A stretch of 64,000 nt of DNA from the NCBI RefSeq assembly GCF_009177065.1, contig NZ_WEZF01000015.1, positions 1-64,000 of the forward strand, written 5' to 3'. A program made the translations under genes and the position numbers. The notes beneath the pieces were generated by a model, which did no database searches, had not been told where the DNA came from, and saw nothing but the letters and a program-made list of their open reading frames with translations. Within the stretch, counting starts at the first letter, position 1; each line of letters opens with the position of its first letter. Source of the DNA: Tautonia marina. Lineage in GTDB: Bacteria; Planctomycetota; Planctomycetia; Isosphaerales; Isosphaeraceae. Positions 53,433-60,173 of the stretch are shown piece by piece.

Positions 53433-53978
53433 ATGCTGCTGATGGCCGTCGAGCAGGACGACCGGATCATCTGGGTCGTCGTCGAACAGCACCGCCCGAA
53501 GGGACGTATCCGCAGCCGGATCGTGCTCCATCTCGGCCAGTATCGAGATCGAGACGAGGCCGAGGCCGCCTTCCTCGATCGCTTGCAAACCAACCCCACG
53601 CTCCGCGCCGTCGCCGAGCGCTGGGCGGCCAACGCCGAGGACGTGCTCACCGACCGCAAGGCGCGGGCCCGGTTCCTCCTTCACGGCGTCAGCACCGGCG
53701 GGATCGCCCCCTTCGCCGACGACCTTCTGCTCAAGCGCGAGGAGCAGGAACGGCAGGCGAGGGAGCGGGCCCGCGCCGCCTCGTGGCCCTCCGGAATCCC
53801 CTCCGTCGCCTTCGCAACCCTCGGCCTCTCCACCGCCGCCTCGCTCGCCGAGATCAAGGCCGCCTACCGCCGTCGCGCCTTCCTCCTCCACCCCGACCGC
53901 GGCGGCGACCACGCCGCGATGGCCGCCCTGAACGCCGCCTACGAAGACGCCGCCTGGTACGCCGAGTGGAGGGGCTGA
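53433..53978 (+). CDS. Protein with C-terminal J domain
   Basis: A 181-residue protein. Residues about 125-178 form a DnaJ domain: TLGLSTAASLAEIKAAYRRR, the Hsp70-stimulating HPD in LLHPDRGGDH, and LNAAYEDA. The N-terminal part (VVVEQHRPKGRIRSRIVLHL, then a charged helix) is not recognised. Unlike DnaJ the J domain sits at the C-terminus and there is no Gly/Phe or zinc region, so it is a specialised type-III J protein that would recruit Hsp70 to an unknown client. Confidence 0.78.
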   Translation: MLLMAVEQDDRIIWVVVEQHRPKGRIRSRIVLHLGQYRDRDEAEAAFLDRLQTNPTLRAVAERWAANAEDVLTDRKARARFLLHGVSTGGIAPFADDLLLKREEQERQARERARAASWPSGIPSVAFATLGLSTAASLAEIKAAYRRRAFLLHPDRGGDHAAMAALNAAYEDAAWYAEWRG

Positions 53979-54249: not shown

Positions 54250-55284
54250 ATGGTCGTCCAGGAGAGCAAGGGACTCAGTGAACGCGGCAGGCAGCGATCC
54301 GTCGTCTCGAATTTTTTCCAGCGGACGCTCGATTCGCTCCTCTCGCACGTGGCCATCCTTCGGCCCGACGGCACCATCGTCGCCGTCAACGCCGCCTGGA
54401 ATGCCTACGCCACCCGAAACGGCCTGGTCGAGAGCCTCTGCGGCCCCGGCGTGAACTACCTCGAGGTCTGCGAGGCCGCCTCCGGCTCCTGCACCGAGCA
54501 GGCCCGACTGATCGCCCGAGGCATTCGAGACGTGGGCGAGGGCCTCATCCCGGACTTCCAGCTCGAATACCCGTGCCACTCTCCCACCGCCCACCAATGG
54601 TTTACCATCCGCGTGACCCGATTTACCGTCGGCAAGCAAACTCGAATCGTGGTCACGCACGACGACATCACGCGGCTCAAACGGGTCGAACTGGAACTCC
54701 AGGAGGCCAATCGCTTGCTGGCAGCCCAGGCAACCACCGACGGACTGACCGGCCTGGCCAATCGCCGCCACTTCGACGAGGTCCTGGCCCGGGAATGGAA
54801 GCGGCACGCCCGGTCGGCGACCCCGCTGTCGCTGCTGCTCCTCGATCTCGACCACTTCAAGTTGTACAACGATTTCCGAGGGCACCTGGCAGGCGATGAC
54901 TGCCTCCGCGCGGCCGCCGAGTTGATCCAGGCCTCGGTCTGCCGGCCCGGAGACCTCGTCGCTCGCTACGGCGGAGAGGAGTTCGCCGCCGTCCTCCCCG
55001 AAACCGACCGGGACGGAGCCCTGGCGATGGCCAAGCGCGTGAGCGATCAACTTCGCCTCAAGGCCCTGCCCCACCAGGCCCCGGGAGCCGGCCCGTTCGT
55101 CACCCTCAGCATCGGCTCTGCCTCGGTCGTCCCCTCTGCCAACGTCCCCCCCGAATCGCTCATCGAGCAGGCCGACCACGCCCTCTACGCCGCCAAGGCT
55201 GCCGGCCGCGACCAGATGAAGCATGCCGACTCCTCCGGAGCGTCCATGCCTGCACCTCACGCTGAATCGCTCGAGTCGCCCTGA
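54250..55284 (+). CDS. PAS-GGDEF diguanylate cyclase
   Basis: A 344-residue protein. A PAS-like sensor at about residues 20-150 (LLSHVAILRPDGTIVAVNAA to VVTHDDITRLKR) is followed by a GGDEF domain at about 165-325 with active-site GGEEF (241-245), TTDGLTGLANRRHFDEVL at its start and the product-inhibition site RPGD (232-235) five residues upstream. It should make cyclic di-GMP. The PAS region has four cysteines (CGPG, CEAAS, C, PCH), which could hold a cofactor. GGAGATGCTC precedes the ATG. Confidence 0.92.
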   Translation: MVVQESKGLSERGRQRSVVSNFFQRTLDSLLSHVAILRPDGTIVAVNAAWNAYATRNGLVESLCGPGVNYLEVCEAASGSCTEQARLIARGIRDVGEGLIPDFQLEYPCHSPTAHQWFTIRVTRFTVGKQTRIVVTHDDITRLKRVELELQEANRLLAAQATTDGLTGLANRRHFDEVLAREWKRHARSATPLSLLLLDLDHFKLYNDFRGHLAGDDCLRAAAELIQASVCRPGDLVARYGGEEFAAVLPETDRDGALAMAKRVSDQLRLKALPHQAPGAGPFVTLSIGSASVVPSANVPPESLIEQADHALYAAKAAGRDQMKHADSSGASMPAPHAESLESP

Positions 55285-55504: not shown

Positions 55505-56773
55505 ATGGCCGTGAGGATCCTGCACTGCGGTAAGTCGCTGCTCAACTATAACCTCTGCCTCTCCGAGAAGGTTTTCGGCTTCACGAGGCGGGGCCAGCAG
55601 CTTGGGGACACGGTCTATCTCGTCGTCAAGCACGACGGCGCGACCGTTTGCGGGATGAGGGCGAAACTGGCCGATGTGACCGACGCGAGGCCCTGGCCCG
55701 ACGCGGAGCATTACGTCGTCGGCTACACCCTGGAGGATGTCTCGTATTCGGAACCCTTCGAGATCCAGTTCCTGGCGGCGATCGGCGGTGAACACTGGGC
55801 GTTGAGATACCTTCAAGGGGCACGGCCTATTCAGGAGGCCGAGGCGGCCGATCAGTTGGCAAAGGCGTTTGAGGCCCATCGCTCCGCTGGCCCGATCCGT
55901 CTTGGTGTCGACGAGCCCAGCACGCCGCAGGATGCCTATGACGAATCCGACAAGGCCTCGCCAATCGAAAATGTTTCATCCGATGATCCGGAGGGGGAAG
56001 GCGCGGTATCGGACACGAAGATCAAGGTTCTTGGAACCTTTCAGACGATCCGCTTTCGCAATGAGAAGGATCTCTTGCAGGGCCTCGAACCCCTGGTCAC
56101 TGAGCATTTCTACTCGCTGCTCCCCGCTTACCGCGAGGAGCACTCACTCCTGATCCCCGACAATCGCCTCTTCCAATCCGCAGGCGTCGAGGCGCGGGGA
56201 GACTCGTTCATCAAGGGAATCCGATCGATCCCCGATGCCCTGCTCATCGTCTACAACAAGCAACTGAAGAATCCCATCCAGATCAATCTCATCGAATATG
56301 AATGTTTCGGAGAGGGCAAGGTCAGCTCTCAAGAAAAATCAAATTACTTGAACAGCCATGTCATCCCCCAGCTGATGCGGTTTGCCTCGACCTTCAGCAT
56401 CGTCACCGACAAGCAAATCCGGGATCAGACGATCAGGGACTGGACCGACAAGGTCATCGCGTTCATCTTCTCAGACCCGGATCGCATGCGCAAGCTCAGT
56501 TCCTGGATCAAGGAAATCGACCCCGGCATCGCCGAGCAACTCATCGGCAGGCAGATCGACAAGCACATCACCAATGCGTTCCAGAAGACGATCAAGGTCA
56601 TGCTCGTCGTTGATGAGTTGAGCACCGATCAGCGCGACACCATCAGCAATGTGATCAGCGCATTCAAACTCGAAAACGGCGAGAGCATCCGATTTCTCTC
56701 TTACATCGTCCGCCTGCATCAACGCATCGCGATCACCGATGAGCGGGCAGAATACGCCTTGTCCGTGCAGTAA
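55505..56773 (+). CDS. Candidate PUA/EVE-like domain fused to a PD-(D/E)XK-like nuclease
   Basis: A 422-residue protein that I do not recognise as a named family. Residues 1-115 resemble the PUA/ASCH/EVE fold in order of motifs: RGQQLGDTVYLVVKHDG, VCGMRAKLADVTDARPWPDA and a late PFEIQFL. Residues about 115-170 are a disordered linker (PSTPQDAYDESDKASPIE). The C-terminal half has IPDALLI (Asp244), then QINLIEYECFGEGK (Glu264, Glu266, Lys272), a pattern like a PD-(D/E)XK active site with a shifted lysine. Base composition looks AT-richer than its neighbours. Start ATG 55505 after GAGGA. Proposed role, modified-DNA or RNA recognition plus cleavage, is inference. Confidence 0.55.
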   Translation: MAVRILHCGKSLLNYNLCLSEKVFGFTRRGQQLGDTVYLVVKHDGATVCGMRAKLADVTDARPWPDAEHYVVGYTLEDVSYSEPFEIQFLAAIGGEHWALRYLQGARPIQEAEAADQLAKAFEAHRSAGPIRLGVDEPSTPQDAYDESDKASPIENVSSDDPEGEGAVSDTKIKVLGTFQTIRFRNEKDLLQGLEPLVTEHFYSLLPAYREEHSLLIPDNRLFQSAGVEARGDSFIKGIRSIPDALLIVYNKQLKNPIQINLIEYECFGEGKVSSQEKSNYLNSHVIPQLMRFASTFSIVTDKQIRDQTIRDWTDKVIAFIFSDPDRMRKLSSWIKEIDPGIAEQLIGRQIDKHITNAFQKTIKVMLVVDELSTDQRDTISNVISAFKLENGESIRFLSYIVRLHQRIAITDERAEYALSVQ

Positions 56774-57568
56774 AGGAGGCGCCTGGGTGATCTCGGAGGG
56801 CTAGGGCGCAACTTGCGCTCACTCGGAGGCCGGGGAGCCATCGTATCCGCATTCCTGACGAGCCCGACCGGATCTCCATCGGAATCGGTGACTGCCCCTG
56901 CCGTTTTTCCCGATCATCTTAGCGTGGGGAATGGCCCTTCGACGTTTCCCGACCCGACCCATCGGATCGCCCCGGACCTCATCCGGCGCGATCGGCCGCT
57001 CCCCCCATTCTTTGACAATCCGGGAATGCCGGCACGCAGGCACGCATTTCGCATCGGGGCGACTGGGACCATCTTCTCTCAGCCCGATCGCCCGCCCGCA
57101 TGACGCTGAACCCGATTCCCCCACCCACCGTCGCGCGAAACAAACCCATTTTCGCCCGCGTCCTTCGGCGCGAAACGAACCCATTGCCCGGCGCCCGATT
57201 CCCGAAACCAATCGGACGCCATTGGCGCAACTCCTTTCCCCATCAGCCCGATCACCCGATCCACCCCGTTGCATCGAGGCGCACCAGGGCCCTTTTTCCT
57301 CAGCGCACCGAGCCGCGCACGAGGCGACTCAATCCCCTCCCTCCCCCAACTCCCTTCCCCTCATCCGCGTTCCCTCCGTGTTCCCTCCGTGGCCACAGAT
57401 CCCCGTACGAAACGAACCCAGCCGCCGGCCGGGCTCATTCCCGAAACGAACCGTGGCGAATCGGCACAACTCCTTGACAGGCAATCCTCAACGGCCCCTT
57501 CCCCCTGGCGCACCGGAGGCGCACCAAAGGGCGCAACCGAGCGCGCACCGAGGGGGGAAGCGGCTGGG
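56774..57568. repeat. Composite intergenic repeat region, second copy
   Basis: This 795-bp gap has no supported gene. From 57132 it contains CGAAACAAACCCATT, CGAAACGAACCCATTG (about 57170), a degenerate CCCGAAACCAATC, CGAAACGAACCCA (57407) and CCGAAACGAACCG (57441). GCGCACC units occur near 57277, 57302 and four times from 57500 to 57556. TCCGCGTTCCCTCCGTGTTC (about 57365) is the counterpart of the CATCCGTGTT units at 1470. The three unit types match the 839-1677 region. Confidence 0.85.
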
Positions 57569-58390: not shown

Positions 58391-59908
58391 TCACGACTGC
58401 GGCGAGGCGGCTTGCGGCGAGGCCGACCGGCCCGTCGGCGCGACCGCCTGGGCGCTCGGGGCGACGGTTTCAACCGGCACCATCACCGTCGTCGTCACCG
58501 GGATCTCCCGGGTCACCTGGCGCGGGACGCATCGGGTGACGGTCACCGGCACCTGTTCCGGGATCGTCACCGGGACCTGCCGCGTGATCGTCTCCTGCAC
58601 GGGGACCATCTTGGTTGTGTAGGTCGTCACCGGCACCTGGACGGCCCGGGTCACGGGAACCTGCCGGGTGATCGTCTCGGTGACCATCCGGGTCCGAGTG
58701 GTCATGACGGTCACTTGCACCTGTTCCGGGATTGTCACCGGGACCTGTCGGGTGATCGTCTCGGTCACCTGCCGAGGCCGGAGGGTCGGGACGTGGTCGG
58801 TCCGGGTTTCCTGGGTCATGGTGACGCGGGTCGTCGGGACGGTCTCAACGATCTGCCGAGGGACCATCCGGGTCACCGGCACCTGAACGTCGCGGACCTC
58901 CACCCGAGGCACAGTGCGGGTCACCTGGACGGGGACCTGCTGATGGCGGACCTCCGGCACCTGCACGGTCGTCTGCACCGGAACCGTCTCGCAGCGCTGG
59001 CGGGTGACATAAGAGGTTTCCTGGATCTGATGTCGAACCGGATTGGGCACATACACCGACTTGGTCATGTAAGCCGGGGCACACGAACTCCCGCAGCCGC
59101 CGCCATGACCGAAGCCCATGCACGAGAGCCCCTTGCCATGATGACCGCCGACCGGAACCGTCACCGTCTGATAGCCCCCCTGGTCGACGCAGACCTCCCG
59201 AGTTCGGGTCACCGGCACCTGCTCGGCGACCGTCTGGGTGACGTAGCTCGTCCGGACCTGCGGGACCATCACCGTGTACGGCTGCGACTGCATGACCGTC
59301 TCGACCACCCGATCGAGGACCGTGTGCCGCTGCTGAATCGTCTGCTGGGTCGTCACCGGTTCGCAGACCGTTCGGGTCACCTGCTGCGGGACCGTCTCAT
59401 ACTTGGGGATGTTTACCACGTACTGCCGAGGCACCGTGACCGTCTCGTAGATCGTCCGCGTGACCGGGATCTGCTCGGTCTTGTACTCGGTCCGGTACTT
59501 CGTCTGGGTCGTCTGCACCGGCACCTGCTCGGTAATGCAGCGCTGGACGGGGACCTGCTGGGTGACGTACTCGGTTCGGTACTCGGTCCGGGTCGTCTGC
59601 ACCGGCACCTTCTCGGCCACGTACCGCGTGACCGGGACCTGCTCGGTCCGGTACTCGGTGCGATACCTCGTCTGCATGATCGTCTCCGGGACGGTGTCGT
59701 AAACCGTCTCGGTGATCGTCTTCATGGTCGTCACGGTCTGGGGAACCATCGTCGGCCCGCAGGGCAGCCCGACCGGCTCGACCGACAGACACGCAAGACT
59801 CGGGCTCCCGATCCCGCATCGGAAACAGGCCGACGCCGAATCCGATCCCGCCAGGACCATTGCCGCGGTCGCCGCCAGCAGCAGACCGCCCCGCTTCATC
59901 CGCCTCAT
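58391..59908 (-). CDS. YTV-type exported repeat protein, probable cell-envelope component
   Basis: A 505-residue protein made almost wholly of degenerate repeats of the type TRQVPVTxxxxETVxV, for example ETITRQVPVTIPEQVPVTVT and RTEYRTEQVPVTRYVAEKVP. YTVMVPQVRTSYVTQTV matches the YTV motif of Pfam YTV proteins, reported as cell-wall components of Rhodopirellula. A signal peptide (about 1-28, LLLAATAAMVLAGSDSASAC) and cysteine clusters (CFRCGIGSPSLACLS, GGGCGSSCAP) suggest an exported, disulfide-linked surface protein. ATG 59908 follows GGGGAG; the frame is open to 59968. Confidence 0.85.
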   Translation of the reverse strand: MRRMKRGGLLLAATAAMVLAGSDSASACFRCGIGSPSLACLSVEPVGLPCGPTMVPQTVTTMKTITETVYDTVPETIMQTRYRTEYRTEQVPVTRYVAEKVPVQTTRTEYRTEYVTQQVPVQRCITEQVPVQTTQTKYRTEYKTEQIPVTRTIYETVTVPRQYVVNIPKYETVPQQVTRTVCEPVTTQQTIQQRHTVLDRVVETVMQSQPYTVMVPQVRTSYVTQTVAEQVPVTRTREVCVDQGGYQTVTVPVGGHHGKGLSCMGFGHGGGCGSSCAPAYMTKSVYVPNPVRHQIQETSYVTRQRCETVPVQTTVQVPEVRHQQVPVQVTRTVPRVEVRDVQVPVTRMVPRQIVETVPTTRVTMTQETRTDHVPTLRPRQVTETITRQVPVTIPEQVQVTVMTTRTRMVTETITRQVPVTRAVQVPVTTYTTKMVPVQETITRQVPVTIPEQVPVTVTRCVPRQVTREIPVTTTVMVPVETVAPSAQAVAPTGRSASPQAASPQS

Positions 59909-60173
59909 GACTTCACGCTCCCCAAAGGTGCTTCTCACTTGCCCCATCCCCCAGAGACGACCCGGCACACTCGCTCCCGGCCGCCCAGGCGGCTGTCCTT
60001 TCCTGATCGCTGCACCTTTCCGGTTTAGTCCAAATTTCGCGCCAGTTCAAGCGTTGAATTTGGAGTATTTGCGGATTTTGGGGTGATTGTGCGGTTGCTT
60101 TTTTCGGGCCAACGCAACTGGCATGAAGGGAACCACGTTCGAGGCTTGCGGTGGTGTCATTGCTGCGGGGCGC

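Follow-up and report, generated by a model that had tools for sequence, protein, structure and literature searches.

The window analyzed here is a stretch of 64,000 nucleotides at the start of contig NZ_WEZF01000015.1 of Tautonia marina. It contains an open reading frame (ORF) of 422 aa that starts with ATG at 55505, the same Met at which its relatives begin in the family alignment, and stops at 56773. Upstream lie, in this order, a DnaJ-domain gene and a GGDEF gene; on the 3' side, a region with short CGAAACGAACC repeats is followed by a reverse-strand gene.

53433..53978, + strand: DnaJ-domain gene, given for context only; also near the Paludisphaera soli copy
54250-55284: GGDEF gene, the upstream neighbor
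55505..56773, + strand: the whole 422-aa gene, a predicted PUA (YTH/EVE-like)-PD-(D/E)XK fusion, from the ORF and the alignment of relatives
57136-57452: short repeats of the downstream flank

The flanks were therefore as given in a preliminary description of this DNA, which had placed the gene between a signaling gene and repeats. That description had also called the gene AT-richer than its neighbors and proposed an acquired module. Indeed, the GC content is 57%, compared to approximately 65% in the surroundings, and drops to 52-54% in the C-terminal half. An operon with the GGDEF neighbor was rejected because the GGDEF gene is absent from the Paludisphaera locus. The CGAAACGAACC motif has 10 matches in the window, with 2.2 expected and 0 of 100 shuffles reaching as many. 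Four copies (one mismatched) are found 3' of the 422-aa gene, at 57136-57452, and five copies with a spacing of 32 to 34 bases near the window start, at 1272-1415. A 525-aa protein with many VPVT/QVPVT-type repeats is encoded on the reverse strand at 58391-59968.

The 422-aa ORF is a conserved gene. Since a 65% identical protein is present in Paludisphaera soli and 52-59% identical proteins in three other phyla, and since dN/dS values of 0.03-0.065 between close cyanobacterial copies indicate strong purifying selection, we conclude that it is a real gene and not a chance ORF. Sequence searches with the protein gave no credible family match in Pfam, NCBIfam, PHROGs, or PADLOC, and no credible match among PDB sequences. 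A PADLOC match to GajB (E 0.0008), present in only 1 of 13 members, was set aside as chance, and matches to Cas1c and adenylate kinase (E 0.03-0.1) were disregarded. The annotated phage and plasmid collections yielded no relative for the queries tried.

The first cellular relatives came from Paludisphaera soli, Desulfobacteraceae, three cyanobacteria, and Ignavibacteriaceae, and six IMG/VR records with relatives represented five phage lineages; one further phage lineage and three more cyanobacteria were added later. In total, one other planctomycete, one desulfobacterium, one ignavibacterium, six cyanobacteria, and six distinct phage lineages have full-length relatives (36-65% identical). Nevertheless, the family is rare. 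The gene was detected in 3 of 40 relatives of the Tautonia marina genome (one of the three a fragment). Across the phylum, 2 of 392 genomes gave a match, one of them weak and partial (E 0.004), and across the cyanobacterial class 8 of 388 did, with fragments in three of the eight. The other two phyla (198 and 247 genomes) held no copy apart from the carrier itself.

Decayed gene fragments were found in four genomes. A genome of the same genus (L003 1501-1656; L041 7114-7266) keeps only the first 51 residues, followed by unrelated sequence, at a site without the DnaJ neighbor. Three cyanobacterial genomes (L028, L029, L030) hold N- or C-terminal fragments only, and gene loss is therefore frequent. 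Furthermore, the GC content was below that of the surroundings in all 10 chromosomal copies, and phage and cell copies fell on separate sides of the tree (support 87/86). The rarity, the decayed fragments, the purifying selection, the low GC, and the phage/cell split together give the picture of an accessory gene that moves horizontally; the scattered distribution and the low GC support the acquired module proposed earlier. The same DnaJ-type gene is located upstream of both Isosphaeraceae copies, at approximately 1.5 kb in the window and 5 kb in P. soli, and the acquisition may therefore be older than the split of the two genera.

Structure prediction divides the protein into two domains and a linker, the N-terminal domain and the linker being the following.

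55505..55888, + strand: residues 1-128, predicted N-terminal PUA-superfamily reader domain, YTH/EVE/ASCH-like (AlphaFold2 model, VIA-align, PDB profile matches)
55544..55546, + strand: N14, invariant, candidate base contact
55580..55582, + strand: F26, invariant, candidate first aromatic-cage residue
55694..55696, + strand: W64, invariant, on the Pho92 cage residue W231 in the profile alignment
55712..55714, + strand: Y70, invariant, on the Pho92 cage residue Y237 in the profile alignment
55889..56017, + strand: residues 129-171, variable, low-confidence linker (alignment and AlphaFold2)

AlphaFold2, using a 13-sequence alignment, confidently modeled an N-terminal barrel with strands at residues 3-7, 23-26, 36-43, 46-59, and 72-86. 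The predicted model has the five-stranded PUA-like beta barrel and the helix after strand 1 that characterize the PUA superfamily. Both Foldseek and VIA-align grouped it with YTH, EVE, and ASCH domains, and VIA-align superimposed residues 1-128 on such structures with Z scores of 10.6-12.3 and an rmsd of 2.4-3.5 over 114-139 residues. Residues 1-128 are thus predicted to adopt a PUA-superfamily fold nearest to YTH, EVE, and ASCH domains.

Several observations suggest that, within this group, the domain looks most like YTH, a reader of N6-methyladenine (m6A). N14, F26, W64, and Y70 are invariant in 16 of 16 sequences; by our own alignment, N14 presumably occupies the position of YTHDC1 N367. 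When the N-terminal profile was compared with 177,635 distinct PDB sequences, the best two matches were YTH domains with individually nonsignificant E values of 0.26 and 0.59, and a changed alignment gave two YTH domains at 0.25 and 0.46. Weak one by one, the two matches appear notable together. In the weak profile match to Pho92, W64 and Y70 align with a W and a Y six residues apart. The m6A cage of yeast Pho92 consists of W177, W231, and Y237 (PMC6112328), and the spacing of W64 and Y70 equals that of W231 and Y237; from the construct length, positions 92 and 98 of the Pho92 chain would be residues 231 and 237. A closer relation to EVE, which the preliminary description had suggested alongside ASCH, was not borne out by profile comparison: the Pfam EVE model (PF01878) did not match the protein at E values up to 10, and hhalign with planctomycete housekeeping EVE proteins returned a probability of 0.65%, which is no support. 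The only EVE gene detected in the genome search was the housekeeping one, located on another contig. The suggested reading of 5-hydroxymethylcytosine has no specific support. If it behaves like YTH, the N-terminal domain would bind N6-methyladenine.

The C-terminal part was analyzed in the same way.

56018..56770, + strand: residues 172-422, predicted C-terminal nuclease domain (AlphaFold2, structural matches)
56231..56236, + strand: P243-D244, putative first catalytic motif, at the start of a core strand (AlphaFold2 and alignment)
56294..56302, + strand: E264-Y265-E266, putative second motif, on the next core strand, with E-X-E instead of E-X-K (AlphaFold2 and alignment)
56336..56338, + strand: K278, invariant, in the helix after that strand, candidate for a displaced catalytic lysine (AlphaFold2 and alignment)

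Folded alone, residues 172-422 reached a pLDDT of 84.9 in AlphaFold2. In a VIA-align comparison with 998 chains, the best 16 matches had Z scores of 4.5-8.4, a range about which the tool warns. They comprised Upx (placed by rank and aligned range only), FokI, HamA, NucS, BstEII, the small subunit of R.BspD6I, McrC, Bse634I, PaqCI, Shedu, and Cap4, several of them as multiple entries of one protein, and we take all 16 to be PD-(D/E)XK-type nucleases or carriers of such a domain. Because these Z scores are moderate and Foldseek returned nothing significant for the C-terminal model, we assign the predicted restriction-endonuclease core fold on the ranking only. Fold prediction and structure comparison of both halves thus agree with the PUA barrel and the PD-(D/E)XK core expected from the preliminary description; neither is missing from the models.

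The PD and EYE motifs named there are also in place, at 243-244 and 264-266, and lysines are located at 272 and 278. In the model, E264-Y-E266 is at the end of its core strand and P243-D244 just before the preceding one. All 16 sequences share P243, D244, E264, E266, and K278, and one has Arg in place of K272. The position of the usual X-K lysine is taken by E266, and the invariant K278 lies in the next helix. Since the invariant residues are D244, E264-Y-E266, and K278, the classical lysine is displaced, as had been noted. It could be argued from the missing canonical E-X-K that the nuclease domain is dead or weakened and that the protein serves as a DNA-binding decoy or an anti-restriction partner of a methyltransferase. 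We consider this very improbable: the candidate catalytic residues are all invariant in phage and cell copies that are 36-65% identical, and BamHI functions with E-X-E. By analogy to BamHI, nuclease activity of the E-X-E arrangement is plausible, and the fold together with the invariant residues suggests that the domain would cut DNA.

The unexpected part was the genomic context in phages. In 6 of 6 phage lineages, the 422-aa gene has a DNA methyltransferase gene as its same-strand neighbor, approximately 6-100 bases away, while 10 of 10 chromosomal loci have the gene without an adjacent methyltransferase. The phage partners belong to two unrelated methyltransferase families: PF01555 in L011, L012, and L013, and D12 in L014 (two copies, the second missed by the plain Pfam scan and found in the genome scan), L016, and L042. 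Besides these, whole-record scans detected one further PF01555/D12 gene, in one record. By a rough estimate, six such adjacencies would arise by chance with a probability of about 1e-10. PF01555 takes in N4-cytosine enzymes, so the phage partners are not necessarily all adenine methyltransferases. Neighboring genes in three lineages match phage hallmark families, among them terminase small subunit, DNA polymerase, and Mu Gam-like protein. We propose that the phage genes form a two-gene cassette of a reader-nuclease and a DNA methyltransferase.

Some chromosomal loci contain other defense-type genes (HNH, an MmeI N-terminal fragment, DUF559, HepT/MNT, and PemK). At the Spirulinaceae locus (L007), we did not accept the PF01555 gene that lies 1.9 kb downstream of the copy as a partner, since it is paired with a BsoBI-type enzyme directly beside it; this restriction enzyme and its methyltransferase span L007 5528-7939. 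At another cyanobacterial locus, a truncated MmeI N-terminal nuclease domain (L035 6850-7431) overlaps the start region of the copy, and DUF559 and PemK genes are located downstream. All six cyanobacterial carriers possess D12 methyltransferases elsewhere in the genome. The genome of the window showed no D12 match and four PF01555 matches, all on other contigs, and no methyltransferase gene is linked to the 422-aa gene on its own contig.

Because a domain resembling methyladenine readers is joined to a predicted nuclease, and because the phage relatives are always beside a DNA methyltransferase gene, we consider it probable that the methylation state of DNA decides whether the protein cuts it. 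We favor a restriction-type nuclease of one polypeptide chain in which adenine methylation would determine the action on DNA, with either polarity. In bacteria, the mobile solo gene would then probably be defensive.

The methyltransferase pairing in phages, which resembles an operon, also suggests a type II restriction-modification system, in which the PUA-like domain would only help to bind an unmodified target and the neighboring methyltransferase would protect that target. The PD-(D/E)XK fold is in line with this, and the structural matches include FokI, BstEII, and Bse634I. Still, we regard it as unlikely, since the chromosomal copies have no linked methyltransferase, a single nuclease family is combined with methyltransferases of unrelated families, and invariant aromatic-cage positions would be superfluous in a domain that simply binds DNA. 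The proposal of an RNA-damage enzyme fared worse. In eukaryotes, YTH domains are readers of RNA m6A, and RNA is also the predicted target of CoCoNuT type IV systems that carry YTH-like domains. In this proposal, the reader would bind methylated RNA for cleavage by the C-terminal domain, and the protein would be an effector of RNA damage or abortive infection. The effector fold, however, is mainly a DNA nuclease fold, the phage partners belong to DNA methyltransferase families, and neither an RNase domain nor an RNA-related neighbor nor other evidence for an RNA substrate was found. We therefore think an RNA-directed role is highly unlikely.

The two polarities of methylation-dependent DNA cleavage differ in how well they explain the phage cassette. 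In the type IV reading, which we hold tentatively, incoming DNA would be cut by the nuclease once the reader has recognized methyladenine in it; in phages, the enzyme would attack m6A-marked DNA of the host or of competitors, and the linked methyltransferase would mark a different motif that the reader ignores. Solo genes at all 10 chromosomal loci are as expected for such an enzyme, and HHPV4I is a known virus-encoded m6A-dependent endonuclease. On the other hand, the constant pairing with a methyltransferase in phages would carry a risk of self-cutting, and the DNA of the six cyanobacterial carriers is itself likely m6A-marked, because they carry strong D12 methyltransferases. Thus, of the modification-dependent type IV enzyme that was originally suggested, the reader-like and nuclease folds hold, but simple cutting of methylated DNA fits the phage pairing poorly.

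We lean slightly to the opposite polarity, in which methyladenine is a self mark that spares the DNA bearing it and leaves unmarked DNA to be cut. Three observations account for this: every phage copy is accompanied by a methyltransferase of its own, the partner methyltransferases are of unrelated families while the reader-nuclease is constant, and D12 enzymes are resident in the cyanobacteria that carry solo copies. If methylation were the trigger, phages would pair the enzyme with the maker of its targets. As one possible scheme, the YTH-like domain of the phage cassette would read methyladenine as a positive self mark and restrain the fused nuclease, so that any adenine methyltransferase would fit, and bacteria would have captured the reader-nuclease alone, with resident methylation protecting them. 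Protection by methyladenine takes about half of our confidence in a methylation-dependent nuclease, and most of the remainder goes to cleavage of foreign DNA that contains methyladenine. Both polarities are kept because characterized reader-nuclease fusions cut modified DNA, which is contrary to a brake and counts against protection.

The pairing with methyltransferases in phages and never in chromosomes raises the question of whether a YTH-type reader can serve as a self-recognition switch of a nuclease, besides being a targeting device. If the protein does bind m6A, it would be a small single-chain tool for work on adenine methylation, and it would connect the ancestry of eukaryotic m6A readers to bacteria or phages.

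Among known systems, several share features with the 422-aa protein. HamA of Hachiman (DUF1837) is among the best structural matches of the C-terminal model and is the broadest (approximately 160 aligned residues, Z 7.7); HamA has a partner helicase, HamB, and an E-X-K site, whereas the 422-aa gene has no adjacent helicase and its product no sequence similarity to HamA. HHPV4I and the wH-fusion m6A-dependent endonucleases are likewise virus-encoded single chains with a PUA-superfamily domain that act on adenine methylation. HHPV4I, however, is a PUA-wH-HNH protein with wH as the sensor, and the 422-aa protein has neither a wH nor an HNH domain. In TgMcrB, an archaeal McrB, a YTH-like m6A reader is similarly N-terminal in a restriction component (PMC8868631, PMC7641849); in our protein, reader and nuclease form one short chain, with no McrB GTPase and no separate McrC. 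McrBC type IV-like systems are also associated with DNA methyltransferases (PMC11090510), but they are multigene GTPase systems of cells, unlike the two-gene phage cassette. In line with this, Pfam detected no P-loop GTPase domain in the protein, and no McrB-like GTPase or McrC gene was present among the neighboring ORFs, which sets it apart from McrBC and CoCoNuT.

The closest counterparts are the EVE-PD(D/E)XK and YTH-PD(D/E)XK fusions, which the portion of Bell et al. 2020 (PMC7641849) available to us presents as predicted type IV restriction enzymes, in line with the type IV reading. They likewise join a PUA-superfamily reader of modified bases to a PD-(D/E)XK nuclease. The 422-aa protein differs from them in that it is unmatched by the Pfam EVE model and has an E-X-E site with a displaced lysine, and its constant pairing with phage methyltransferases is not described in that portion of the paper. 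We conclude that reader-nuclease fusions are already published as a kind, and that the 422-aa protein and its relatives are a variant of that kind: an uncatalogued family of modified-base reader-nuclease fusions present in phages and scattered bacterial phyla.
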